Below, piece by piece: positions 12,376 through 45,827 of a DNA stretch of 64,000 nt (the stretch's first letter is position 1; each line of letters starts with the position of its first letter). The notes under the pieces are model-generated. The model was not told the DNA's origin and did no database searches. It saw only the letters and a program-made list of their open reading frames with translations. The stretch covers positions 248,001 to 312,000 of the forward strand of contig JAUICP010000001.1 in assembly GCA_030427805.1 (NCBI GenBank), written 5' to 3'. A program made the translations under genes and the position numbers. Source of the DNA: Bdellovibrionia bacterium (GTDB lineage: Bacteria; Bdellovibrionota; Bdellovibrionia; Bdellovibrionales; JAGQZY01).

Positions 12376-14469
12376 ATGAAACGGCTTCTTTTAATTATTA
12401 CTCTCACTTTTTTTTCTGCTATTTCCCTTGATGCAAAGTCTTTATCGCGGGCCCAAGAAACTTTTATTAAAAATATCAAATCTAAAATGGCAACACGATC
12501 TCGCGACAAGGTTCCGCAGATCGTTTTACGAAGAATCGCTTTTGAAAAAAAGAGGTCGAAGGGTCAGTCTTCAGCTTTTATTTTTGAACTCTATGCTCTC
12601 GCTATAAATTCTAGTTTTTCATCGAGATCAGAAAAAGAAAGCGGAAGAATTTTAAGTCAACTTAAGAAGGACCTTAAGTCTTTGCAGGGCATTCAATCAG
12701 TAGAACTTATGCCTTTGTTCGAGCTATTTTCTGACCATGAAAAAAACAAAGCTTTATTAGACCGTTTACTCAGTGATTTAATTAAAGATGCCGAAGTTCC
12801 CCTAACTCTGAAAAATCACCTTTATCCAACTTATATTAATCGGCTCGTAATTGTGCCCAGAGATAAGATCGTTGCGTTTGGAGAATGGCTGCGACTCGTT
12901 AGAGAGAATGAAAAGTCATCTTCTTATGAGGAAGCTTTGGCTCGTATTTACTTGTCTAATGAGTTTATTGAGCAATCTCGCCCTGAAGAAGCTCTTGATC
13001 AAAAAGAAGCGGCCATTTCAATTGTTGAAACTCAGCTCAATGAAAAAAAACAAATAGATACGCTGACCTTTATCGAGTTGTTGAGAATTCTCAATAAAGA
13101 ACAACAGAATACGTTAGCGCAAAAGTTATTAGGATTTTTTAATGATCAAATTAAAGAGCGAAGTGAAGAAGAAAGACGTTTTATAAGAGAAAGCACGGCT
13201 CTTGTAGAGTTCGAAATATTCTATCCAGAGAAAAATTTCGAAAGTATATTGGCTCTAATTCCAACAATATCTGCAAAAATAACGAAATTAAATAAAGAGC
13301 GAGCGGGCAGTCTGTTTGCAAAGATCTTGGACATATATTCCGAAGCGCCAGAGCTAACCCACCTCAAGGAGATACTAGAGGCCTTTGTTTTGGTTTTTGG
13401 TAAGAAAGTGACTGGACTAAAAGCGGAGACAAGAGAGCTTTTATTGGATAATTTGGTGGCTTTGGCTTCATCAATCGATAGCAAACGATCTTATAATTAC
13501 TTAGACCCACTTTACCCTCCGATACAGGCGCTCTTAAATCAACCAGGAGCGATCGAAAAACCAAACTATGCTCTTTTGTTAGGAGAAATCTTTCAAAGGG
13601 TTGGAAGGGAATCTCAGGCCCTTGAGATCTTTAGAAACTGCTACATCCGAAAGTTTGTTGGTTTCAAACTCAAAAAAGATCACGTTAAGTGCTTGCGCCT
13701 AGAAACCTATTTATTAATTCGTTCGGGAAAATCAGAGCGTTACGAGAATTTGGCTCCTAAAATTGAACAGCTCCTTAAGACCTACAATTTTGAAGACCCA
13801 GTAGAGAAGACACGCTTGCGAGTCAGTGTCGCCTTAAATCACCTTATAAACTCTCGGTTCAAAGAAACACTTGATGTCTTAGACAGTATTAAGTCGAGCC
13901 TTTCGGGCGGCGAAAATGTTTATTTTAAGAGTATCTATGACATTTATTCAGCGGCTGTTTTCAATGCCACAGGTAAAGAAGACGAGGCTTTAAAGCGGGC
14001 AGATGAAATAGAAAACCTCTTTGTTGCTCAATTTGGAAAAAATGTATCAACATTGAATATTCCATATAGAATTCGCACAGAGTCTTTCCTTCTAAAGAAA
14101 GATGTAAAGCAGGCCAATCAAGCCTATGTGGAAATGCAAAGGTTTTATCGACTGAACAAACCCTATATTCATTTTGATAGGGTGCTAGGGCTTTTACGGG
14201 GCCTATCCTTAGCTTACTTAATAAAGTCGGACTCGCTGGTTGATGAATTGGAAAATGATTTTGAGCAGTATTGTGGTCTTGGTGATCAATATGAATCCTA
14301 TAAAGATCTCATCGAGCTATGGAAAGTCCTCTTTAACGAACAGAAGACGGGAAAAAAGGAGCCGGCAAAGACGACGGCCCTTATGCAAAAAATTGCGAAG
14401 AATTTTGGAGAGAACAATTTATTGGTTTTTATGAATAAAAAATTTGTTAAAGTACTTACAGAAAAGTGA
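12376..14469 (+). CDS. large exported helical-repeat protein, unknown family
   Basis: 697 residues. Signal peptide MKRLLLIITLTFFSAISLDA. The rest is almost wholly alpha-helical and reads like degenerate TPR/solenoid repeats (for example LGEIFQRVGRESQALEIF near residue 400). No enzymatic motif and few cysteines. It follows the MCE operon by 52 bp on the same strand and runs into a small outer-membrane barrel, so it may be a periplasmic partner of the lipid transporter; that link rests on position only. Confidence 0.7.
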   Translation: MKRLLLIITLTFFSAISLDAKSLSRAQETFIKNIKSKMATRSRDKVPQIVLRRIAFEKKRSKGQSSAFIFELYALAINSSFSSRSEKESGRILSQLKKDLKSLQGIQSVELMPLFELFSDHEKNKALLDRLLSDLIKDAEVPLTLKNHLYPTYINRLVIVPRDKIVAFGEWLRLVRENEKSSSYEEALARIYLSNEFIEQSRPEEALDQKEAAISIVETQLNEKKQIDTLTFIELLRILNKEQQNTLAQKLLGFFNDQIKERSEEERRFIRESTALVEFEIFYPEKNFESILALIPTISAKITKLNKERAGSLFAKILDIYSEAPELTHLKEILEAFVLVFGKKVTGLKAETRELLLDNLVALASSIDSKRSYNYLDPLYPPIQALLNQPGAIEKPNYALLLGEIFQRVGRESQALEIFRNCYIRKFVGFKLKKDHVKCLRLETYLLIRSGKSERYENLAPKIEQLLKTYNFEDPVEKTRLRVSVALNHLINSRFKETLDVLDSIKSSLSGGENVYFKSIYDIYSAAVFNATGKEDEALKRADEIENLFVAQFGKNVSTLNIPYRIRTESFLLKKDVKQANQAYVEMQRFYRLNKPYIHFDRVLGLLRGLSLAYLIKSDSLVDELENDFEQYCGLGDQYESYKDLIELWKVLFNEQKTGKKEPAKTTALMQKIAKNFGENNLLVFMNKKFVKVLTEK

Positions 14470-14477
14470 GGAAACCA

Positions 14478-15089
14478 ATGAAAACTCAAAAGCTAACGTT
14501 ACTTCTAATAATCCTCTTCTTCTCAGTTCAAGCACAAACGGCGATACTTGTAGAAGATGGCGGAAAGCCCGTATCAAGAACTTCACAAAGTTATTCAAAA
14601 GAGGCGGTAGATGGAGATTCGTTTCGTTCTTTAAGGCGGGCCGGATTAGGTCTGAGCCTAAGCGGACCGGTTGGAAGTTTCGGAGCCCTTCTCGATCTCA
14701 ATTTTTCTTCAAGATGGACAGGATCTTTGGCCTATGGAGGTTCATTGGATTTTCAATCCTTTGTTGTTCAGGCCAAGCATTACTTTACGTCGACTCGATT
14801 TGCTCCCTATTTTGGTTTTGGCTATACGCGATGGTTTAAGAAAAAATCGGGTGTGCCTTTAGAAGACACCACTCCCAGCTATCTTTTTACTGAATTTCTC
14901 TCTGACGAACAAAAAAGTGAGGGCGGCTTTGCCGAAAATCTTCTTTTTTCGAGTATCGGAGTACAGTTTTTTCAGACCAAAGGTGAGTGGGCGGGATATA
15001 GTTTCGGTCTCGAGGTCAATTTATTGATGGATCCGGTGGATTTAGTGGTAGCTCCCACTGGAGCGTTCAATATGTTCTATTATTTCTAG
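14478..15089 (+). CDS. small outer-membrane beta-barrel protein
   Basis: 203 residues from the ATG at 14478 (GAGGAAA upstream; a GTG four codons earlier overlaps that site). Signal peptide MKTQKLTLLLIILFFSVQAQ. The mature chain alternates polar and hydrophobic residues with many aromatic belts (FAPYFGFGYTRWF) and ends in FNMFYYF, the C-terminal aromatic signature recognised by the BAM complex. No family name recognised. It begins 8 bp after the stop of the preceding exported protein. Confidence 0.72.
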   Translation: MKTQKLTLLLIILFFSVQAQTAILVEDGGKPVSRTSQSYSKEAVDGDSFRSLRRAGLGLSLSGPVGSFGALLDLNFSSRWTGSLAYGGSLDFQSFVVQAKHYFTSTRFAPYFGFGYTRWFKKKSGVPLEDTTPSYLFTEFLSDEQKSEGGFAENLLFSSIGVQFFQTKGEWAGYSFGLEVNLLMDPVDLVVAPTGAFNMFYYF

Positions 15090-16362: not shown

Positions 16363-16784
16363 CTCCTATTCTCATTCTTATGTACAAGTTACGTTCCTAT
16401 CTTGAACTCAATCTAAGTATTCGCGCGGCGATTTCGGACTTCATTCGCGACCCAATGAACTGTAGTCAGTTGCGTAGAGATATTATTATTTGGACGCGAT
16501 CATTCGATCAAGGGCAGGCGGAGCTAGGCCCTTACTTGCAAAAGTCCCCCTATAGAATGAACCTTGTGAGTCTTCTTGAGCGGGGCCTTGAGGGTGCTCC
16601 CATTCAAAGTGATTTGGATTTACTCATCGAAGAGGTCGGGCGAGCGAGTATTGCCGAAATTGAGTTTGAGACCGGAAAAATTCCATTTTTCTTGATGATT
16701 CCAACGTTCTTTTTGTTGGTACCGGCATTTTTTCTAATTTTATTTGTTCCACTGCTCAGAGAGTTTTCAAGGTTACTTGCGTGA
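16350..16784 (+). CDS. TadC/T2SSF C-terminal-like membrane protein
   Basis: 144 residues, ATG at 16350 with GGGAG upstream, inside the end of the previous gene. A cytosolic helical domain (about 15-105) ends in EEVGRASIAEIEFETGKIP and a C-terminal hydrophobic segment FFLMIPTFFLLVPAFFLILFV. That ending matches the closing pattern of TadC (a helix ending at IP/LP, then a double-hydrophobic hairpin). Shorter than a full T2SSF protein, so it is probably one half of a two-gene unit. Confidence 0.5.
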   Translation: MEGVAPILILMYKLRSYLELNLSIRAAISDFIRDPMNCSQLRRDIIIWTRSFDQGQAELGPYLQKSPYRMNLVSLLERGLEGAPIQSDLDLLIEEVGRASIAEIEFETGKIPFFLMIPTFFLLVPAFFLILFVPLLREFSRLLA

Positions 16785-33696: not shown

Positions 33697-36600
33697 TTAG
33701 TTGTCTTCTGGTGGCGGCAATTGATCTTCATCTGCACCTGATTGTTCAGCAGAGATCATCGTAAACATTTGAGCAATCGTGTCAGTGTCTGGATTAGCTG
33801 GATCAAAGCCAAGTTCTTCTAGAATATTGACCATGTGCTCATCGAGAGTGATGGTGAGGACACCTTGAACGTCTTCATCTGCACCGACGACGATTCCTAA
33901 GAATTGCTCCATAAAATCTTCGGGGCCCATCCCCTCTGGAATATCTTGTTCTGCCATGGCCTCAGCCAATTCGGGGTTATGGGCATATTCGACAGGAACT
34001 GTGTTCACTGTTTCGATTTCATCATCGAGGACGTCGTCGGGATCGTAAACAAGATTTACGACTTCGAGTAGATCGTTGATTGAACGCTTCAGAAGTATTT
34101 TAGAAACCCGAGCATTTTTCCAGAGAGCTACTATTTGATTATTGCCTTCGGTGACAAGTTGCATTCCTGTGCCATCATCGTTCAAAGTTAAAGGCAATTC
34201 AAATGCTCCATTCGCTTCATAGGGCTTGTAGGTGAGAATTGGATGTTTGAATCGTCCATCGTTAGATTCTCTTGAGTCTAGGAGTTCCTGTTTTTCGTCT
34301 CCGCGATAAGTTTGGAAGAGATACCAGAATTTTTCCCATGGACCGTTAAAGAAGTCCTCTCGAGCCCTTTCGGCAGCGGGTATAGAAAACTTCAGCCCTT
34401 CAGAGATGGCTCTTAAACCAGTTTTTAATTCGAGCTTTAAGTTATACCAATAATCATCCATGTACTGTTTGCGCTCGACATAGGTGGCGTTAGCCATCTC
34501 ATCACTAATCGACGTGGGCACAAAATCAATTTGTGGCGCTTCTAGAATTCTATCGAAAACGACCTCAAAGAGAAACTCCATTTCTTCAACAGTGCTTTCA
34601 GTAAGATTGTTCTCTTCACCGACGGTTAAGAAGTTATGGAAAGGGTAATCGTCATTTAAAAGTTCAACAGACTTTTGAAAGAGAAAGTTATTAACGGCAT
34701 AGGTTTTTGACTCAACTTGATTAGCGATCGGGTTGAGAGCGACTCGATCCCACCAGTCTTCAAAGTTATCTCCGAGAACCCCTGGGTGAGCTTCATGATA
34801 AAGAAGATCCATGAGGCCTTGATAGTACCTGCGGTCTCCATTGATTTCCTTTGAGGAGGGACTTGCATAGATTTTTTCCCAAATAGCCTTTGGATTATTA
34901 GCATTTCTAATTCTTCCACAATATTCATAGGAATCGTGTCTGAGCAAGCTTCCGATGAAACCGCGATCCACATCCGTCGTTAAGGGGATCTTTGGAGGCG
35001 AAAACCGAACATTACGACGTGGAAATATGAGAAGAAAATTATCTGAAGTGATAGAAACATCATTGTGTTCCATGGTGTCTCCGCCACAAAGCATATTGGT
35101 CATTAAATAGTGACCCATCGATCCCATCTCTGTGGCATTGGCTCCAACAGGGTACCAATTAAAATCGACACCGGCCGCCTGGAAGTTATTATCGTACTCC
35201 ATAAGATAGCGATTACCCATTCCAAGGGGAAGGGGGCCGTGTTCAAGACCAAGATAGCCGTGACCACTCTCGCGATAGTTATTTGGATTGTGAACGTTGT
35301 AATAGCCACCGAACTCAGGCCGAACCCGGTATGAAAAAGGAAGTGAATCCTCAAGGGCAAGGATGGCTTCAGCGGCAGCACAATTATTCGAATCAAAACT
35401 GGTTAAACACGTGGCCAATGTTTCATGGGCGGTAAACTCAAAAAGTTCTATGAGTCGTTCGATCGCTTCATTGCGGTCTCGACTGATACTCGATTTTAAA
35501 AGTGTTGAAATCTGTGAAAGCTCCGCTCGATCCTCTTCTCTAACCCGACCTTCTTCGACTCGATTGTCGATCATAAGAGCTGCTGTATAGAGAGGAGATG
35601 ATAGTTGTCTTTGTAATTCTCTAAAAATACACATGTCGGTGGATTCCATATCGGGGTCCTCACACATGTAGTGGTTTAATGAAAAGGTGCGGGTATGGTC
35701 CGATAGACGTGTGAGTCCGTTGGCCATTTCTGAAAGGTCATCAGATGAAATCAGTTCGTGAATTTCTCTTAATGCATGGTCAATACCGGGGGCCAAATTA
35801 TTGGTAGTAGCCTCAATCACTTGAGCCACGTAATTTGCGATATGTCTGAGGTTCGCTTTTTGTGCGTTCAGTTGCCAAAGGGCATGACTATGCTCTTCTT
35901 CAAAAACTCCATTCCATTGGGGAACTGCCGGCCGGCCCCTTTCATCTTCCTGTACCGTTGTTTTTATTTTATCGTGGGGGCGAACGCCAAAAAGTGGATG
36001 GGTTCTAAATGCCGGGTACTTTTCTTCGGCGAAGAGACTAAGCATTGCGGCACGGTCCGAATCAAAATTACCTTGAGAGCGAAGAAGTGGAGCTCCTTCG
36101 CTTTCTTGCTTTTTAGCATTAATCTGTCCGAGTATATCGCCATAGAAGTGGTAAGAAGCTTTGTGCATGTTATTGGCGTTACTAAAGTATTCAAGCCAGT
36201 TGGTTAAGATTGTCGATACCGGAGATGTTAAAAACTGTCGGTGTTGGCTCAAGGCTGTTTGATAGCTTTGAAAGAGACTGTAAAACCACCTGTCATTTTC
36301 ATTGGCGTTGTCATTACATTCATTAACGATGTAACCGTTGCCATAGGGATCTTGCATAACTTGCCCAATGGAGGTCTCAACGAGTCCATATTGGTCTCGG
36401 ACTTGCTCTAAAACCTCTGGATCTTCAATTTCTTGGACATGTCTGATTTCACATTCTTGGGGAATTTCCATTCCGTCTTCATAGAATTTATCAAGAGCCG
36501 ATCTCAGGTTGTTTCTCGCCTTTTGAATACTAAAGCCCTGTTTGAGGTGGCTCCAAGCATACCGACCGGCGGCCACTCCAATTTCAATAATAATTAAAAA

Positions 36601-38130
36601 AGCTCCGATTTGTATGGCTCCAACTCCGAAGGCAGTGAGTAGGCGCATCGCAGGCCTCACAACAGCTCGACCGATGAGTGCTTTAGGAACGCCTTTTCTC
36701 ATAAGTGTGCGCATTGGCATTTGTCGGAACATTCTCCAATGGCGAACCATGTCTCGATTAGCACCGATTGAATTTGCGAGAGCCTGTGATTGACTTGCGC
36801 CAGCCCAGCTGATTCCGCGCATTCTCTTAAGGGCGTTAAAAGATGTGCCAGCAAAGAGCATAATGTGTTGAGCAGAAAAAATCACAGGAAGCATTATGAG
36901 AAGGCTTGGTAAAATCTGTTGTTTAAAAATTTCGCCAAAATTATCACACCAATTTGTAGCCTCATCTCTTTCGCGAGGACTCATTGGTCGGTCACTTGCG
37001 ATTTTCATACACGAGCTGAGATACTTACCACCTGTGAATATAATTTGCGAAAATAGGAGGCCCATTCCAAGGCCCGCGACTGACATCCCTCGAATTTGGG
37101 TTCCGAGAGACTGTCGATAAAAGCGATCTCGGGTTCGCATATTAGTCGCAAATTTTCCACCTTCAATATAGGGCATCATCGCTTGGGCTAATTTGTGAAC
37201 GTAATTATTCCAGCGAGCTGTGGCAGCACTACCGGCGCCAAAACCCATCATAGAAAAGAGCATCAACATGGAGCCATATTTTTGAACGACTTCGTCGAGG
37301 GCTGCAGGATTGGCCAAGTATTCATAGCGCATTTTAGTCGCTGAATAAGCGTACATGGTAAAAAAGATCATGGCTGTGGTCATAGTCATTTTAGCCGAAC
37401 CACTAGCGAGATCGCGCATCAACGAAGACATTGAGGTATCAAGTCTTATGTGACTTGGAACTCGAGCCGTTGGTGTTCCTCCGACGCCAGGAAGAGTAAT
37501 TTGACCTCGAGCAAGACTTGGAACATTTTGCAAAAGAAAACGAGGACCCGAAACTCTGTACTGACCAGCTTGTTGGGCCTGGTAGGCGGCTCGCGAGGCA
37601 GGATCCCGCCAAATTTCCCAAGCGCGACTACGAACATCTAAGATGTTGGCTTGGTACTCTGACAGAAGGGGTTGCATTCTTTCAAATAGAGCAACGTTTC
37701 TAATATGCATTCTTTCGGCATTTGTCGCGTTACTTGGAAATTCAGGAAGATTGCGAAGAGTTTCCTGCACGAGGCTCGGTCCACCTGAAGTTCTTATAAT
37801 ATGAGCAGCCGAACGAAGCTCTTGATAAAAGCGACTTCTTTCGGCAGCGCTATTGAGGTTATTTGGATTAAAGCTTTCACTGAGAATCGCCATGCGACCA
37901 GAGTTGTAGGCTCTTTCAGCCGTGGCCCGGGTGATATTTTCTCCCGGCGTTAGACCGAGGCTTTCGTGGATGGCAACGGGTGAACTTGTAACTGTAGGAG
38001 ATGTGGGCGCAGAACTGACTCCACTGGGCGTACTCGTATCTGCGCGTAAGCTCAGGGGCACACTTAGAATCATGCTGGCGTTAATCGCAGCAACTAAAAT
38101 GTGGAATGTCAGTGTTTGCAAAAATCTCAT
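33697..38130 (-). CDS. 1477-residue exported multi-spanning protein, unknown
   Basis: Signal peptide (1-30), Ser/Thr/Pro linker, helical region (about 55-200), then about five hydrophobic spans near 247-264, 285-303, 350-367, 406-427 and 497-522, and a soluble C-terminal domain of about 950 residues with scattered cysteine pairs. It ends in a Pro-rich acidic tail (DEDQLPPPEDN). Residues 57-112 weakly resemble a J-domain with HPD changed to NPN. Starts 12 bp after the AAA+ gene, so the two proteins probably act together. No family recognised. Confidence 0.7.
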   Translation of the reverse strand: MRFLQTLTFHILVAAINASMILSVPLSLRADTSTPSGVSSAPTSPTVTSSPVAIHESLGLTPGENITRATAERAYNSGRMAILSESFNPNNLNSAAERSRFYQELRSAAHIIRTSGGPSLVQETLRNLPEFPSNATNAERMHIRNVALFERMQPLLSEYQANILDVRSRAWEIWRDPASRAAYQAQQAGQYRVSGPRFLLQNVPSLARGQITLPGVGGTPTARVPSHIRLDTSMSSLMRDLASGSAKMTMTTAMIFFTMYAYSATKMRYEYLANPAALDEVVQKYGSMLMLFSMMGFGAGSAATARWNNYVHKLAQAMMPYIEGGKFATNMRTRDRFYRQSLGTQIRGMSVAGLGMGLLFSQIIFTGGKYLSSCMKIASDRPMSPRERDEATNWCDNFGEIFKQQILPSLLIMLPVIFSAQHIMLFAGTSFNALKRMRGISWAGASQSQALANSIGANRDMVRHWRMFRQMPMRTLMRKGVPKALIGRAVVRPAMRLLTAFGVGAIQIGAFLIIIEIGVAAGRYAWSHLKQGFSIQKARNNLRSALDKFYEDGMEIPQECEIRHVQEIEDPEVLEQVRDQYGLVETSIGQVMQDPYGNGYIVNECNDNANENDRWFYSLFQSYQTALSQHRQFLTSPVSTILTNWLEYFSNANNMHKASYHFYGDILGQINAKKQESEGAPLLRSQGNFDSDRAAMLSLFAEEKYPAFRTHPLFGVRPHDKIKTTVQEDERGRPAVPQWNGVFEEEHSHALWQLNAQKANLRHIANYVAQVIEATTNNLAPGIDHALREIHELISSDDLSEMANGLTRLSDHTRTFSLNHYMCEDPDMESTDMCIFRELQRQLSSPLYTAALMIDNRVEEGRVREEDRAELSQISTLLKSSISRDRNEAIERLIELFEFTAHETLATCLTSFDSNNCAAAEAILALEDSLPFSYRVRPEFGGYYNVHNPNNYRESGHGYLGLEHGPLPLGMGNRYLMEYDNNFQAAGVDFNWYPVGANATEMGSMGHYLMTNMLCGGDTMEHNDVSITSDNFLLIFPRRNVRFSPPKIPLTTDVDRGFIGSLLRHDSYEYCGRIRNANNPKAIWEKIYASPSSKEINGDRRYYQGLMDLLYHEAHPGVLGDNFEDWWDRVALNPIANQVESKTYAVNNFLFQKSVELLNDDYPFHNFLTVGEENNLTESTVEEMEFLFEVVFDRILEAPQIDFVPTSISDEMANATYVERKQYMDDYWYNLKLELKTGLRAISEGLKFSIPAAERAREDFFNGPWEKFWYLFQTYRGDEKQELLDSRESNDGRFKHPILTYKPYEANGAFELPLTLNDDGTGMQLVTEGNNQIVALWKNARVSKILLKRSINDLLEVVNLVYDPDDVLDDEIETVNTVPVEYAHNPELAEAMAEQDIPEGMGPEDFMEQFLGIVVGADEDVQGVLTITLDEHMVNILEELGFDPANPDTDTIAQMFTMISAEQSGADEDQLPPPEDN

Positions 38131-38142
38131 AATTCGTTTCTC

Positions 38143-41100
38143 TTAGTTAGCAGCAGCACCATCAACAGTAAGTCCAGCGGCATCGTCACTACCAATTCGC
38201 GAAGCATCAAGTGTTTCAGCCACCTCTCCAGCATCTGCCGCTTCATCAGCAATATTAGTAAGTTCATCAGATTCCGAAAGAGCTCTTAAGGCGTCATTAG
38301 ATATGTTCGGGTCGAGAACATCGTATTGGATTAAATCTCCGATATTTTCTGCGGCCACATGCCAGTTGTATTCAGCCATGACGTCTTCGCGGAATAGAAA
38401 ATCAGCGACATTCACTTCCCGCATCTCGGTGACGCCCTCATCATTTCTAAAAGGGAGGCTCACAACTGCGTCAGGATGGTAATCAATATATTTGGATCCA
38501 TCTTCGGCTGTTTTTAGCAGCGGATGATTTGCATTAAAGTTAGCTGCCCCTCCAGTTAGGTAGTCGGGGTTTATTATTATTCTAATTCCCTCTTCGGGCA
38601 TTTCACTCGCATTTTTTAGGCGAATGTTTACAATGTCTCCTTCTTGAAGATAACGAGCACTTCTCATTCCATCGATGGGTTCTTTTAAAAATTGTGAAAT
38701 TCGATGAGGAACGTTTCGTGCTGATCGCATCACTTCTCCACCACCTGCTCGAGCGGCCTGACCACCGAGCAAGTCGTAAACTTCTTGTCGAACGACAACA
38801 CCAATCAGTTGTTCGGCGTAGTCTCGAATGTGTTTACCTTTAAACATACGTCTAACAAGTTCAGACATTTCAGGATTGATAAACTCTTGAACTAAATAAA
38901 TCCCATCAGCACGGTTTAATAACTCTGGTCTCAGGACCCTCTCTCCTGGTCTCTTGGCAACATTGGCTAGACCACTGTCGGCGGCAAGAAGCTGATCATT
39001 AATAATTGATCCTGACTCCTTAATTCGATTTGTATTTTGTAGATGTATGAGTCTCTCAAAGAGTTCAGGTTGTCTTTCTGCTACATCTCTAAGTAGGTTG
39101 GCAGAAACAATAACCGTCCAATTGACACCATACTCAACTCCAGAGGCCATATCCCTCCAAACTCCAGTTTCTAATACTGTAAGAAGGATATCTAGAATTT
39201 CGGGATCCATTTTTTCGATCTCATCAAGCATCAGGACACCGTTAGGACTTGATTGGGCGAACTTGGTCATGCGACCGCCGCCACCTTCTTTGTATCCGAC
39301 ATATCCCGGGGGGGCACCAATGAGAGCTGCTCGCGAGTGGGCATCGGCGTGTTGTCCACCCTCGACAAGCATCATTTGGTTACCACCAACAATTTTTTGA
39401 AGGGCGCGACCAATTTCTGTCTTACCAAGGCGAGACTCACCAAAGAGAAAGAAAATCCCTTTGAGCCCTTGACCAGTATCGGTCATTTTAACTTTTAGAA
39501 TTCGCGCAATGTCTTTTAAGATTGGCGCTTGACCGACAATCCAGTTAGAAAGGTCCTGACTGATTCTCTCAAAGACTCGCATATCACCACGAATTTGTGC
39601 GCGGATTCGTCCAATCGCGATATCTGTGGCCTCTCCAAACTGAGCTTCCGCAGCCGTTTCTACGAGAAGATCAAAGTCTATTTCATTCAGAGCACCGATC
39701 GAACGAAGATTTGATGTATGGGCCGTTTCGGCTGTGTTATTTGATAATCGCAGTAGCTCCGCCGGATTCATTTCTTCAATTTCTGTAATAAGTGCTTCAG
39801 TTTTTTCAATTCGAAGCTGAAGAGATCGCATCATTCTGGTGTTTCCAGCCTCGCGAGCTTGTTCCATCACTCTCGTGACCTGTTCAATTTCGGATCGATA
39901 AATATTTGTAAAATAGTCGACAAGTCTTGGAGCATCAATGGCTTCCGCAACTGAATCAAAAATTCGCGCTTGCTCATCGATGTTATCACCAGCCATCCGA
40001 AGAGCTTCTTCAATTTCTTCCATGAATTGTCGCTTTTGCATTAATTGAGTCTCAGCTTGAGCAATTTCCTCAATTTGTTCTTCGATCTGCGCCCTTTCGG
40101 CCTGAAGTTTTTCAAACTGACTTTGAATTTCTAACCGCTCTTTTCTAAGAAACGGCATATCGTCGGGAAGAGCAGTTTCATCAAAGTTTTCTACATCAAG
40201 TCTATTGTAAGCATCTTGGTTAAATTCAATTCTCTCTGGATCAAAATCATCAGCTCTTCTAGCTAGCCTTTGATTGAGCTGTCGCCCTTTCTCAATAATA
40301 TTGGTAATTTTATCTTCAACATCAATTAGGGCCTGGGGACGTCCAGCTGCTCGTTTTGTCTGTAGTTTATTAACCGCATCTTCTAATAATCTAATACCGG
40401 CACCTGGAGGGTGAATAACTCGATTTGTACCATTTGGAGTGTATCCGTTTTTCACTATTCGCGCGGCATCGTCTGCAAGGGATTGGGGAATATCAACACC
40501 GTACCTAGTTTGTAAGTGTTCAATATGCTGCATTAAAATCATAGGTGCAGAGTTCACATCAGGTACAGGAACGTCGACTTGTGCGACTCCATCCATTCTT
40601 TGTAACTCAATTTCATCTATAATTGACGCATCATCGGTTCGTGCAATGACTTGTGCATGATCAGTCATTCTTTGTAGTGCGCCAAGAAAGATAGCTCCAG
40701 GGGATTGCTCTCTATTAGAATTGGTTGATGAGGGTTTAAGCTTTTCGAATCCGTCTATATCTATAATAATCCTATGACCAGCTTCTTGAGCTATTCTGAG
40801 GTTTTCAATGAGACCATCTAAAAACATTTCTCTTTGGTCTCTGGGAATAGCAGAAGAAAGATAGTGATCGATATCAAATCTAAGAACAAGACTTTTTTCC
40901 AACCCGTTAGGCAAAACAAAGTCGTTACCCAAAGTTCTCAACTCTTCAAGATTCATCACAGTTGAATTTGTGAATATTTCCACGAGTGTTTTCTTACCAA
41001 CTCCAGTCGGTCCAGTTATGAAAGTTATACGATTTGAGTCAGCATTAAGTATCTGTTTTAAACGACGAAAAGGAGTTGCTAAAGTTGGCCAATGGATATT

Positions 41101-41433
41101 TGTATATTGGTTAGCGGCTGCTCGCGCTGTAATATTGTCGAAGATTTCAGGGTTCCTGAGCATCCGCGTATCGCCACCTCTTAAAGTGGGGATATGAGAC
41201 ATCGAACGAACAAACCTTGGTTCAACGACACTTCTCTTAACCTGGGCGATGCGGGCTCCGCTAGTTCCTTCTGGGAGAAATCTTCGAAATATTGAGTTGA
41301 TCACAGACCACCCTGTATTTCCAGGTTGGGGAATGAGCGTGATCGCCGAGCAAATTAATACGAGAGAAATTATACTCATATTTATTCTGTGAGCGAACTT
41401 TAACTGAGTCTGTTTTGCGAATCTATTCTTCAT
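38143..41433 (-). CDS. ClpB-like AAA+ protein with N-terminal membrane/export segment
   Basis: 1096 residues from the ATG at 41433. A basic N-terminus and a hydrophobic stretch (SIISLVLICSAITLI, about 20-34) come first. NBD1 (about 100-365) has a damaged Walker A GPTGVGKK and IIIDIDG in place of a Walker B. A long coiled coil (about 430-560) sits where ClpB has its M domain. NBD2 (about 625-880) is intact: GESRLGKT, pore loop GYVG in GAPPGYVGYKEGG, Walker B LMLDEIEK, sensor 1 VSAN, Arg finger LRPELLNR. About 200 extra residues follow. ClpB normally has no export signal. Confidence 0.85.
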   Translation of the reverse strand: MKNRFAKQTQLKFAHRINMSIISLVLICSAITLIPQPGNTGWSVINSIFRRFLPEGTSGARIAQVKRSVVEPRFVRSMSHIPTLRGGDTRMLRNPEIFDNITARAAANQYTNIHWPTLATPFRRLKQILNADSNRITFITGPTGVGKKTLVEIFTNSTVMNLEELRTLGNDFVLPNGLEKSLVLRFDIDHYLSSAIPRDQREMFLDGLIENLRIAQEAGHRIIIDIDGFEKLKPSSTNSNREQSPGAIFLGALQRMTDHAQVIARTDDASIIDEIELQRMDGVAQVDVPVPDVNSAPMILMQHIEHLQTRYGVDIPQSLADDAARIVKNGYTPNGTNRVIHPPGAGIRLLEDAVNKLQTKRAAGRPQALIDVEDKITNIIEKGRQLNQRLARRADDFDPERIEFNQDAYNRLDVENFDETALPDDMPFLRKERLEIQSQFEKLQAERAQIEEQIEEIAQAETQLMQKRQFMEEIEEALRMAGDNIDEQARIFDSVAEAIDAPRLVDYFTNIYRSEIEQVTRVMEQAREAGNTRMMRSLQLRIEKTEALITEIEEMNPAELLRLSNNTAETAHTSNLRSIGALNEIDFDLLVETAAEAQFGEATDIAIGRIRAQIRGDMRVFERISQDLSNWIVGQAPILKDIARILKVKMTDTGQGLKGIFFLFGESRLGKTEIGRALQKIVGGNQMMLVEGGQHADAHSRAALIGAPPGYVGYKEGGGGRMTKFAQSSPNGVLMLDEIEKMDPEILDILLTVLETGVWRDMASGVEYGVNWTVIVSANLLRDVAERQPELFERLIHLQNTNRIKESGSIINDQLLAADSGLANVAKRPGERVLRPELLNRADGIYLVQEFINPEMSELVRRMFKGKHIRDYAEQLIGVVVRQEVYDLLGGQAARAGGGEVMRSARNVPHRISQFLKEPIDGMRSARYLQEGDIVNIRLKNASEMPEEGIRIIINPDYLTGGAANFNANHPLLKTAEDGSKYIDYHPDAVVSLPFRNDEGVTEMREVNVADFLFREDVMAEYNWHVAAENIGDLIQYDVLDPNISNDALRALSESDELTNIADEAADAGEVAETLDASRIGSDDAAGLTVDGAAAN

Positions 41434-41450: not shown

Positions 41451-43340
41451 CTATCGCCTGAGCGATTTAATACGTGCATATCTTTCTAATATTTCAAAAA
41501 CTCGACCACGAGTTCTCGGATTTCTTATCAAACGAATTGTAGGGCCTAAGGCTCCACGCATGGCAATCACACCGGTTCCAACTGGCGCCATAATGTATTC
41601 CATAATTAAGTCTTTGGAGCGTTGATCGAGGCGTTCAATTGCCATCATCACGAAAATTCCGTCCTCAGGCCCAACTCCAGAGCTTGAGAAAAACCTTTGA
41701 TACTCTTGTAAATAGCGATTGTTGGCTAAACTTACGAACTCTAAGTTAATTCCGAGACCGGTAACAAGGCCACACGAAAGCACCGCAGCCCAACGGGTAG
41801 TTAAAAGTCTGCCGAGCATAAATTTTGCGACCCACTTTATTCGACCAATGGGCAAAACCATTGATACACATGAAACGCCGAGGGCCACTGCCACTCCTGC
41901 TTCGCGCATGACCTGCCAAAACTCTGTGCTTTCAAGATCGGCTTTAAGTTCGTCAATATGAGTTTGAGTAATCCCTTCAAGCTCTCCATTTTCCGCAACG
42001 ATATCTTCCCAGCTTTGATCCACCAAATTGGCATTGGCCATCAATGGGAGTAAATCATCGTAACTATCAAAAGTATTCATTTCTCCAAAAGCCTCGCGAG
42101 TCTTTTCACTCATAAAAAGATAAAGCTCGAAAGCCTCTTTGAGTTGCGGATAGAAGTGAGTAAATGGATATCCTGATTGCTCTTGGTAGGCGAGATCTCC
42201 TTCAGTGGGTCCTTCTTGTGGCAGACTCATTAAACCAATCACAGGAAACTGATTAAGCTTTAAAAAGTAATCTTCTTTAAAAGACTTCCAGACATCTTCA
42301 CGACCACTGTGCATGTAGTTGTCGAGGCCGTAGTTATCCCAGCGAGTAAACATATCTTTTTCATGCTCAAGGCGTCTTTGAAATTCAGCCTCAATTTCGC
42401 GATTTCGAGTATCCCAGTGATTTTGATCTTCTTCGCTCAAGAAGTAGTCAATTCTTACGTCTCTTCCTTCTGATTGAGCGTCAAAAATAGATTGAGCCCA
42501 AGCATCGAGTTCATCGTAGAGAGGTTGTCTGAATTCATTGTGAATTTGTTCTTCAATATGTGGAAGGTGAAGAATTTCGGTAAAATTTAAACCGATATCT
42601 CTTCTATGGCCTTCAGTTGTACATTCATTTTCGACAAATCCCACTTGAATGCCGAGCTCACGTCGATCATAAAACTCCTGTTCTTTTTGATAGAGCTTAG
42701 TTAAGAATCTACGATCCGCTTCGCACTTCTCTTCAGGAGACAGGTGGGGTAATTCAGGTGGCTCAGGGACGCCCTCAAAATCTACAAGAAAATGGCTAAA
42801 CTTGTGTCGCACTCGATTGTTAAAGCGATAGGATCTATATTCCGGTCGTTTTAAAACATAGTACTGATCAGTTCTTCGTCTCGGTCCCGATAGCGCGGCA
42901 AAGAGCCGCATTTCATTATAGGCTTCGATGATTCGGTCAACACCGTATTCGTAATCGTTAGTCTCGCCACTGTAGCGGCCACGAAGGAACTCTTCACAGA
43001 TTTCAAAATTATCCATGCGATACTGATGCCCCTCATCTCCACTATCAAGACAGTGAATACGGTCTCGAACATATAGTTCATTGGCGAGGACATGGCCTTG
43101 ATAGATCGTACGTAGAGCCGTGAGGAATTTGAGTTTGAGAGCCCGGTCAGCTTGAATTCTTTGATTCTCTTCGACGAGAGCACAAAAATCCTCTTGGGAG
43201 TAATAACTGAATTCGTCGACAGCCGCTTGGTCGAAACCACCGCATTGGGCAAAGGATGGGGCATAAAATAACAGCACGAGGACACTTGCTAAAAGTGCTT
43301 TTTTATTTAGTAATTTTGAGAAATTAGAAATAGTCCTCAT
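41451..43340 (-). CDS. 629-residue exported protein with two C-terminal membrane spans, unknown
   Basis: Signal peptide cleaved near SFA-QCGG (31). A large charged, helical mature domain with cysteine pairs (QCGG, DFC, IHC, EIC, KCE, NEC), then two hydrophobic segments (about 481-498 and 517-533) and a basic C-terminus. That layout suggests a periplasmic body anchored to the inner membrane. It is the first gene of the trio with the AAA+ and the 1477-residue protein (gap of 17 bp). No family recognised. Confidence 0.68.
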   Translation of the reverse strand: MRTISNFSKLLNKKALLASVLVLLFYAPSFAQCGGFDQAAVDEFSYYSQEDFCALVEENQRIQADRALKLKFLTALRTIYQGHVLANELYVRDRIHCLDSGDEGHQYRMDNFEICEEFLRGRYSGETNDYEYGVDRIIEAYNEMRLFAALSGPRRRTDQYYVLKRPEYRSYRFNNRVRHKFSHFLVDFEGVPEPPELPHLSPEEKCEADRRFLTKLYQKEQEFYDRRELGIQVGFVENECTTEGHRRDIGLNFTEILHLPHIEEQIHNEFRQPLYDELDAWAQSIFDAQSEGRDVRIDYFLSEEDQNHWDTRNREIEAEFQRRLEHEKDMFTRWDNYGLDNYMHSGREDVWKSFKEDYFLKLNQFPVIGLMSLPQEGPTEGDLAYQEQSGYPFTHFYPQLKEAFELYLFMSEKTREAFGEMNTFDSYDDLLPLMANANLVDQSWEDIVAENGELEGITQTHIDELKADLESTEFWQVMREAGVAVALGVSCVSMVLPIGRIKWVAKFMLGRLLTTRWAAVLSCGLVTGLGINLEFVSLANNRYLQEYQRFFSSSGVGPEDGIFVMMAIERLDQRSKDLIMEYIMAPVGTGVIAMRGALGPTIRLIRNPRTRGRVFEILERYARIKSLRR

Positions 43341-43556: not shown

Positions 43557-44207
43557 TTAGAGAGATCCACCGGCAGCAGCAGCTTCACCGCAATCTTGGA
43601 ACATTTGCTCAGCAGTGTTGCGAGCAGTTGCTTCGTCAACGTTTCTGATAGAAGCGATGGCACCGATAACAGCTTCACCAGCAGACTTACCACTGTTTAC
43701 ACCAGCTACAACTTCAGTGAAAAGTTGGTTAGCAGCGATAGAAGCGTTGTCACCGAAAAAGCTTTCAGCGTTGATGATACCGTTGTTTTGATCGTTAGTG
43801 ATGAAAGCAAGAAGAGCTTTTTCACCAGCGTCAGAAGTATTAGGGTTGATGTCTTTAGCAGAAGCCATAAGCTTAACTAAGTTAAGAAGAAGACCCTTTT
43901 GCTCATTAGTAAGAGAATCTTTCATTTCTTCCATCTTAGAGTTAACTGCATCCAAACCAGAAGCGATTTTAGCATTGTTTTGGATTGCAGCAGTGATGTC
44001 AGTAATAACTGTAGAGTCACTAACACCAGCAGCTAAAGAAGCAGCAGAAGCACCAGCAGCATTAACTACCGCACCAACTGTTCCTTGAACAGCTTGAGCA
44101 ATTGCTTGTTGGTTACCAGATTGAACAGCAGCTTGAAGAGCCGTATTAGCCATAGAAGGCACACTCAATAACGTAGCCGCTAGAACTGTAATAAAAAACT
44201 TTTTCAT
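43557..44207 (-). CDS. Ala-rich small exported protein, unknown
   Basis: 216 residues. Signal peptide KKFFITVLAATLLSVPSMA; the mature protein is rich in Ala, Asn, Val and Gly and almost entirely helical, with a single Cys near the end (FQDCGEAAAAGGSL). GGAGG precedes the ATG and a strong terminator follows, pointing to a highly expressed single-gene unit. No family recognised; a structural envelope or matrix protein is one guess. Confidence 0.7.
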   Translation of the reverse strand: MKKFFITVLAATLLSVPSMANTALQAAVQSGNQQAIAQAVQGTVGAVVNAAGASAASLAAGVSDSTVITDITAAIQNNAKIASGLDAVNSKMEEMKDSLTNEQKGLLLNLVKLMASAKDINPNTSDAGEKALLAFITNDQNNGIINAESFFGDNASIAANQLFTEVVAGVNSGKSAGEAVIGAIASIRNVDEATARNTAEQMFQDCGEAAAAGGSL

Positions 44208-44570: not shown

Positions 44571-45827
44571 TTAGAGGGGACCATCTTCGCCCTGGGCTCC
44601 TGGGGGAAGATTAGATTCGTAGTAGGGATCGTTGGGGCCCGGTATTTTCAAAAAAAGTTGTGGGATTCGAGCTCTCTGCCAATTGGCAATAACACTGACT
44701 TGTCTTTCTTTGGCTTCACTGAGGACTTTACCGTAACTATAGAAAATCTGTTGCGCTTGAAAGAGTCGAATCACTTCTTCATCAAGAAAATCCAATTCGA
44801 CAAGGCGAGTACTTCGGGTTCCTGCAACAGTAGCAATTTCACCGATATAATCGAGAGCATTATCATCCTCAGGGAGTGCCTCTTCCCATTCCATTAAGTT
44901 GAAACTATCAAAAACGATATCGCCATCTTGATTTCTTCTGGCATTCGTAAAAACGAGCCCCCTTTGTGCGAGGGGAGATTCAAGGGCAGTGTTTGCGGGA
45001 TCCTCTGGTTGCAGAAGGTTTTCATGCAAATTAACTTCTGTAATACTATCCGGGTTTACACCAAGATCTTTTTTAATCTTAATGAGGCGAACACCTAAAA
45101 ATTCTCCACTACCGGTTTCGAAAATAGGTAGTAAGGCCACCTCTTGTGGGTTGTAAGCTCGATAACGAGAACGTGTCCCCGGGTAAAGAACATCGAGCCC
45201 TGAAAAACTAATATTGATCTCAACGAGACCGTGTTCTAAATCAATTTCTCTTTGGCGAACTCGATCGAGTTCTTCTTTTAAGTCAGAGAGCTCTCGACTT
45301 GAACAACCACGACAAGTTGTTCCTACGAAGACTTCTTCTGTTTGATCACTTTGCCGATACCAAATTTCAATAAATCCGGTTTTTTCCTGAAGAAAACTAG
45401 TTAAACCACGTGGATTGGTATCAATGACTCTGAACTCTATTTGTTGGGGTAGAACTCTTAAAACAGCGATCTGCAGTGTATTTTTGACGTCGTTTTCTAA
45501 TACCACCATCGAACGGTGATATCGTGCAAGGTCAATGGTAGAGCGAATTCCGGGTAATTCAGCTTCTCTAACAACAATTTCATTAACTTTTGCGAGTCGA
45601 AGATTTTGATCGAAGACTCGATACTGACCCGGTTCACTTTCAATGGCTTCGATAAGGATATCTTCAGGAAAGGATAATCCATCGAGACCATAGGTAATAT
45701 TATCGAGTAGATCTGATTCTTCCGCCTTTAACGATAGACCAGCAAAGAGTAGGCAAATGCTTAACGCAATCACTATGAGGTATCGAGCTTGAGAAGAGTT
45801 AAAGGCAAAATTTGAAATCATTTTCAT
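44571..45827 (-). CDS. 418-residue exported protein, unknown
   Basis: Signal peptide near residues 15-35 (YLIVIALSICLLFAGLSLKA). A beta-rich first half contains a CRGC motif (TTCRGCSSRELSDLKEELDRV) that leads into a short coiled coil; a mixed second half follows. It ends in a Pro/Gly acidic tail (LPPGAQGEDGPL). CRGC may be a redox or metal site. No family recognised. Stands between the cyclophilin and the Ala-rich gene on the same strand. Confidence 0.62.
   Translation of the reverse strand: MKMISNFAFNSSQARYLIVIALSICLLFAGLSLKAEESDLLDNITYGLDGLSFPEDILIEAIESEPGQYRVFDQNLRLAKVNEIVVREAELPGIRSTIDLARYHRSMVVLENDVKNTLQIAVLRVLPQQIEFRVIDTNPRGLTSFLQEKTGFIEIWYRQSDQTEEVFVGTTCRGCSSRELSDLKEELDRVRQREIDLEHGLVEINISFSGLDVLYPGTRSRYRAYNPQEVALLPIFETGSGEFLGVRLIKIKKDLGVNPDSITEVNLHENLLQPEDPANTALESPLAQRGLVFTNARRNQDGDIVFDSFNLMEWEEALPEDDNALDYIGEIATVAGTRSTRLVELDFLDEEVIRLFQAQQIFYSYGKVLSEAKERQVSVIANWQRARIPQLFLKIPGPNDPYYESNLPPGAQGEDGPL

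Follow-up and report, generated by a model that had tools for sequence, protein, structure and literature searches.

The 64,000-nucleotide stretch analyzed here (the window) comes from a 4.5 Mb, Bdellovibrionia-type genome and encodes an HSP100-type AAA+ protein with a predicted export signal ahead of two nucleotide-binding domains (NBD1 and NBD2). Its gene lies between two others, P3 and P2, whose products have signal peptides of their own. Since an export signal on a motor means that the motor probably works outside the cytoplasm, we consider it probable that this protein is a Sec-targeted HSP100 unfoldase, driven by NBD2, that acts beyond the inner membrane. The features on which the argument draws are these:

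38143..41433, minus strand: HSP100-type AAA+ open reading frame of putatively exported type, 1096 aa (AAA_2 score; ClpB/ClpC/Hsp104 fold match)
41329..41385, minus strand: hydrophobic signal/anchor segment, residues 17-35, after a basic n-region (lowest 19-residue transfer energy of the protein)
40339..41148, minus strand: NBD1, residues ~96-365, catalytically degenerate (motif comparison and predicted fold)
40987..41013, minus strand: degenerate NBD1 Walker A, GPTGVGKKT, residues 141-149 (motif comparison)
39694..40155, minus strand: middle region, helical and coiled-coil-like, residues ~427-580 (predicted model, pLDDT ~70-86)
38644..39624, minus strand: NBD2, residues ~604-930, catalytic set intact (HSP100-NBD2 HMM, 92 bits at 622-888; VIA Z 27 to the ClpB C-terminal domain)
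39418..39441, minus strand: NBD2 Walker A, GESRLGKT, residues 665-672 (motif comparison)
39295..39318, minus strand: NBD2 pore loop, GAPPGYVG, residues 706-713 (motif comparison)
33697..38130, minus strand: P2, 1477 aa with 10 Cys, a signal peptide and hydrophobic segments (a homologue adjoins an AAA+ gene in genomes G098 and G135; shorter relatives in a Bdellovibrio-like genus)
41451..43340, minus strand: P3, 629 aa, with a signal peptide and, toward the C-terminus, hydrophobic stretches (G098 has a homologue next to an AAA+ gene)
43557..44207, minus strand: P7, 216 aa, small signal-peptide protein upstream in the cluster (from sequence)
44571..45827, minus strand: P8, 418 aa, signal-peptide protein upstream in the cluster, of uncertain membership in the system (from sequence)

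A hydrophobic N-terminus ahead of a Clp-like body

The reading frame reported in the first-pass annotation was recovered on the minus strand. An ATG at 41433, with a purine-rich GGAAAG a few bases 5' of it, gives the 1096-residue protein – an alternative, longer frame begins at a TTG 12 bp upstream of that ATG. The N-terminus reads MKNRFAKQTQLKFAHRIN-MSIISLVLICSAITLIP. Consistent with the basic N-terminus and roughly 15-residue hydrophobic stretch that had been described, five Lys/Arg residues precede a segment at residues 17-35 that no other part of the protein equals in hydrophobicity (1.6 kcal/mol summed over the best 19-residue window on the Hessa scale). Among composition shuffles, 87 of 20,000 matched this hydrophobicity within the first 60 residues.

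An n-region and an h-region are recognizable in the window protein, a clean AxA cleavage site was not found, and a short amphipathic basic stretch follows the segment. Basic residues occur on both flanks, including RR and KR within the 35 residues after the segment, and for that reason the positive-inside rule gives no clear verdict. The sister-species orthologue keeps the basic and hydrophobic N-terminus; the first ~60 residues of the two proteins are 43% identical, and the orthologue's segment is the weaker one (dG 4.1).

Export signals among non-canonical Clp-like proteins

We collected all AAA_2 matches in 23 genomes of the order, set aside ClpA, ClpB, ClpC, ClpX and HslU, and kept the remainder with a large open frame; match and length decided the choice, and N-termini were not looked at. 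Two proteins went unscored, from a split gene (G128 contig 18) and from a near-identical copy of a paralogue, and the G003 protein was included though it falls below the E-value line. Export was called with a simple hydropathy scale and thresholds. By this measure, an N-terminal hydrophobic segment is present in 19/19 non-canonical proteins (dG <= 5.9) and in 0/20 ClpA/ClpB controls (dG >= 9.3), a difference in segment energies with a Mann-Whitney p of about 1e-7. Most of the 19 also have AxA-like cleavage sites, as in a paralogue from the window genome (SQTAIAQ/ED) and in the G116 (FNAKA/DSK), G003 (TVHA/QGQ) and G133b (SAWA/AGD) proteins. A composition classifier trained on fetched proteins (cross-validated AUC 0.69) placed the mature exported set toward exported proteins and away from canonical Clp proteins, though the classifier is weak and we give its result little weight.

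These results show a signal-type N-terminus to be a trait of the family. The central claim of the first-pass annotation, that a ClpB-like body carries an export or anchor segment, is supported for the window protein and extends to the 19 scored relatives; predicted export of the window protein is well supported by sequence.

The exported proteins fall into two classes – HSP100-like proteins organized as in the window, and longer proteins that combine an M41 (FtsH-type) peptidase with between one and three AAA+ domains – and every one of them matched HSP100 NBD2 (24-190 bits). Fusions of Clp-type AAA+ domains to M41 (HExGH), with signal peptides and 838-1433 aa in length, are encoded at L078:6688-10662, L089:6627-10916, L090:6154-10455 and L091:4098-8111, with further such fusions at L094:5502-9467, L095:5810-9553 and L098:6479-8995; these are apparently exported AAA+ proteases. 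The L090 fusion also matched the Pfam Torsin model above its cut-off, and near the exported AAA-M41 gene of G119 an 859-aa signal-peptide protein with a possible ATPase domain is encoded (L078:13437-16016).

The window genome's paralogue (L039:9333-12632, 1099 aa) combines an unambiguous signal peptide with an acidic linker, and its alignment with ClpB spans the two NBDs. It is 95% identical between the sister species and has signal-peptide neighbours of its own (L039:8023-9321 and 12954-14720).

Decay of NBD1 and conservation of NBD2

Alignment confirmed the motif pattern proposed at first pass. NBD1 of the window protein has lost the Thr/Ser of Walker A (GPTGVGK-K; GVGK-G in the orthologue) and the Glu of Walker B (IIIDID), and NBD2 retains Walker A (GESRLGKT), Walker B (LMLDE), the GYVG pore loop (GAPPGYVG), sensor-1 Asn779 and the Arg finger, Arg841. 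The NBD1 Walker B Glu is lost in 9/9 exported HSP100-like proteins aligned, and in NBD2 neither the Lys of Walker A nor the Asp of Walker B varies. The alignments thus show decay of NBD1 with conservation of NBD2, and we propose that NBD1 is a dead structural ring. In the G098 and G090 members NBD2 is eroded at the Arg finger or the pore loop; members may therefore differ in activity.

The protein matched AAA_2 (PF07724) with 67 bits against a cut-off of 27, and NCBIfam does not place it in ClpB, ClpA or ClpV. The ClpB equivalog model gave 79.3 bits against a cut-off of 1232.1, and the best NCBIfam score, 98.8 bits from the ClpV/TssH model over NBD2, compares with a cut-off of 884.95. Pfam searches to E = 1 found no Clp_N domain, residues 1-95 having no confident fold, and Pfam likewise gave no M41 peptidase; nor was the Torsin model matched. 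An M-domain had no sequence match, and the predicted model shows long helices at 427-580.

AlphaFold2 with a 24-row alignment gave a mean pLDDT of 69, with residues 96-1040 mostly at 70-90; this model was used, a three-sequence alignment having given an unusable pLDDT of 45. Foldseek and VIA-align 2 matched the predicted body to ClpB, ClpC, Hsp104, ClpA, PTEX HSP101 (6e10) and Skd3, at Z 24-27 for ClpB/Hsp104 – a fold match that is partly built in because canonical ClpB rows sat in the alignment, and with that reservation the model agrees with the ClpB comparison proposed at first pass. Residues 1-95, including the hydrophobic helix 2-31, have pLDDT <50 and lie outside the body, which starts near residue 96. 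The model in this low-confidence stretch speaks against a buried helix of the folded body, a part of the case that had been named as fatal to the export claim.

ClpB (seven rows plus ClpC) and ClpA form groups of their own in an NBD2 tree, with the window protein and the exported proteins outside them. The phylogeny that had been suggested as a check thereby separates the window protein from ClpB, and its long branches resolve neither the deeper order nor single versus several origins of export. The earlier label 'ClpB-like' holds for the fold and fails for ClpB identity on the curated cut-off, domain content and catalytic pattern.

A recurring gene set with predicted exported partners

Gaps of 17 bp and 12 bp separate the AAA+ gene from P3 and P2, respectively. 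The AAA+ orthologue of the sister genome (contig JAUHWN010000015, Bdellovibrionia bacterium) has the same gene order; there P2 is broken, toward its C-terminal end, into two frames that overlap (L040:12305-16498 and 16386-16772), by either a frameshift or an assembly error. An operon of G098, a genome of another family, was missed by single-sequence searches and needed profiles: it has the P3-AAA-P2 order, with proteins of 670, 1075 (AAA+) and 1444 aa that all have signal peptides (E 5e-20 for P3, E 3e-9 for P2). G135 has a P2 homologue whose gene runs into the start of the next, which encodes a 963-aa exported AAA+ protein and is followed by a signal-peptide DnaJ-domain protein (29.8 bits against a cut-off of 27.8), and the P3 relative is on a contig other than that of the P2-AAA pair. 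The sequences show a recurring gene set whose partners are predicted to be exported. At L076:4493-5365, a signal-peptide DnaJ-domain protein with an HPD motif lies directly after an exported AAA+ gene; it has no known exported Hsp70 partner.

P2 had no Pfam or NCBIfam match, and P3 had none above threshold, with one sub-threshold Pfam match, Cut8. Across 368 genomes of the phylum, the P3 profile found relatives in 4 only (the window genome, its sister, G098 and G135). The P2 profile found 19, including relatives of ~950 aa in a Bdellovibrio-like genus that we infer, by the number of its genomes and what genes they hold, to be Bdellovibrio. The relatives of this genus occupy the syntenic place (tolB, a PAP2 phosphatase and an epimerase nearby) without an AAA+ gene or P3. 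P2 therefore appears to be older at the locus, and the AAA+ gene and P3 would be additions in some lineages. The ~950-aa signal-peptide proteins are encoded at L144:8047-10887, L145:8582-11425, L146:8339-11188, L147:7503-10379 and L154:7239-9998, and a ~230-aa signal-peptide protein is encoded near these window-syntenic relatives.

As candidates for P2 or P3 relatives, the neighbours in G116 and G090 found no support; those in G128 and G133 reached an hhalign probability of 53% to P3, which is suggestive only. P7 did not match the small protein that corresponds to it in G098.

Divergence of the AAA+ gene

Compared with its orthologue (L040:9029-12292), the window gene (38143-41433) is 69% identical, against 89-99.5% for the neighbouring genes. 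Its synonymous sites are saturated (pS 0.75 versus 0.05-0.43 in the neighbours; dN 0.24), and dS of the neighbouring genes is 0.05-0.63. Because saturation is confined to the AAA+ gene, we rejected positive selection as an explanation; the pattern points to replacement by a diverged allele, which probably took place in one lineage. In the NBD2 core, dN (0.043) is far below dS (1.6), indicating purifying selection and therefore a functional protein. P7 (43557-44207) is near-unchanged relative to L040:6256-6906 (dS 0.05 versus about 0.4-0.6 in neighbours), through either high expression or recent transfer.

How the putative unfoldase might work

In the mechanism that we favor, the N-terminal segment would direct the protein to the translocon, and the amphipathic basic stretch would keep it at a membrane together with P3 and P2. 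NBD1 would act as a non-catalytic structural ring, and the motor that threads or unfolds polypeptide would be NBD2, which has the Walker motifs, a sensor, the Arg finger and the GYVG loop. We infer a body outside the cytoplasm, ATP hydrolysis there and a complex with P2 and P3, as well as the substrate, the direction of threading and any prey-facing role.

The bacterial periplasm is generally held to lack ATP. The likeliest source would be a host- or prey-derived pool, or else another extracytoplasmic pool. No TLC-type ATP/ADP translocase was found in 140 genomes, and the control genomes were also without one. An ATP transport system has been reported in Bdellovibrio (Ruby and McCabe 1986, cited in PMC4834554); on that account, extracellular ATP during predation is conceivable, provided that the present organisms are predators.

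Comparison with known systems

The window protein shares with ClpB and Hsp104 the NBD1-middle-NBD2 layout, the NBD2 pore loop, Walker motifs, sensor, Arg finger and fold. Unlike them, it has a predicted export signal, no recognizable Clp N domain and a degenerate NBD1, and it falls outside the ClpB and ClpA clades. ClpV/TssH gave the best NCBIfam score for NBD2 but is cytosolic with two active NBDs, and the neighbours that we read showed no T6SS genes. An M41 domain, as in the membrane-associated AAA+ protein FtsH, occurs in some of the order's exported relatives; the AAA+ domain of FtsH, however, is cytoplasmic and of the classic AAA type, and the window protein has no M41. Torsin, an HSP100-like AAA+ protein outside the cytosol (in the ER lumen), differs in having a single small AAA domain and regulatory cofactors.

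Our best reading of the gene set is a three-gene envelope machine whose likeness to PTEX and Skd3 would be one of layout, not of descent. Plasmodium HSP101 has a signal peptide and is secreted, and it is among the sequence and fold matches of the window protein; HSP101 has two active NBDs, whereas NBD1 is degenerate here. PTEX is an ATP-driven vacuolar system with three essential core proteins – HSP101, the membrane pore EXP2, and PTEX150, which is without known homologues (PMC7355975). No relation of P2 or P3 to EXP2 or PTEX150 was detected with Pfam/NCBIfam profiles, and no sign of a host-membrane pore was seen here. Skd3 (human CLPB), in the mitochondrial intermembrane space and thus topologically extracytoplasmic, has only an NBD2-type ring, with a short hydrophobic stretch before its body (PMC7343390); since it works with that ring, such a ring suffices. 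In contrast to the window protein, Skd3 is eukaryotic, reaches its place by mitochondrial import, and has ankyrin repeats and no NBD1.

A PTEX counterpart – an exported HSP100 on a P2/P3 envelope complex that uses extracytoplasmic ATP, such as that of prey, and threads proteins through a membrane, perhaps to or from a prey compartment – is a reading that we put forward tentatively and hold to be doubtful.

Alternative readings

The hydrophobic segment could instead be an uncleaved N-out/C-in or re-entrant anchor, with the body in the cytoplasm in the manner of FtsH or a membrane-docked ClpB and with P2 and P3 as receptors. ATP is available there, and the basic pairs after the segment, the missing AxA site of the window protein and the hydrophobic stretches in P2 and P3 would all fit. 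Set against this are the five basic residues ahead of the segment, as in Sec signals, the ordinary cleavable-type signals of the siblings, and the predicted export of the partner proteins themselves, and we regard it as unlikely. Between the two topologies raised at first pass, the signal-peptide architecture of siblings and operon partners thus disfavors a cytoplasmic body on an anchor and appears to favor delivery to another compartment.

The protein might also be exported without being a motor, NBD2 being fixed in one nucleotide state and the hexamer serving as a scaffold or to bind substrate. Such a role would suit a normal periplasm, where no ATP is expected, and it accords with the already degenerate NBD1 and with the G098 relative, which has Asp in place of the Walker B Glu and no Arg finger. 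In the window and sister species, however, the full NBD2 set, including the pore loop, is near-unchanged while the rest of the protein diverges, and we judge this role quite improbable. An ordinary cytosolic disaggregase with a mis-called start or a buried N-terminal helix would explain the HSP100 fold and NBD2 but is strongly disfavored, given a start conserved between species, a segment modelled outside the folded body, and the presence of that segment in 19/19 relatives and its absence from 20/20 canonical Clp proteins.

Implications

In bacteria, the absence of periplasmic ATP is the reason for regarding HSP100 motors as cytosolic. A set of signal-peptide HSP100 proteins in which NBD1 has decayed and NBD2 is kept offers a testable exception to this rule, and would mean either that ATP is present in some extracytoplasmic compartment or that an AAA+ protein is useful there by other means. 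In the open-access literature we found no description of an exported or periplasmic bacterial AAA+ protein, and a comparative-genomics paper on Bdellovibrionota predators yielded no mention of AAA+ or Clp.

We know of no earlier extracytoplasmic AAA+ unfoldase system in bacteria; if the reading as a PTEX counterpart were true, this would be the first one known. The extracytoplasmic unfoldase that we favor would also give research on predatory bacteria a candidate machine, with a P2 relative near tol genes in a Bdellovibrio-like genus.
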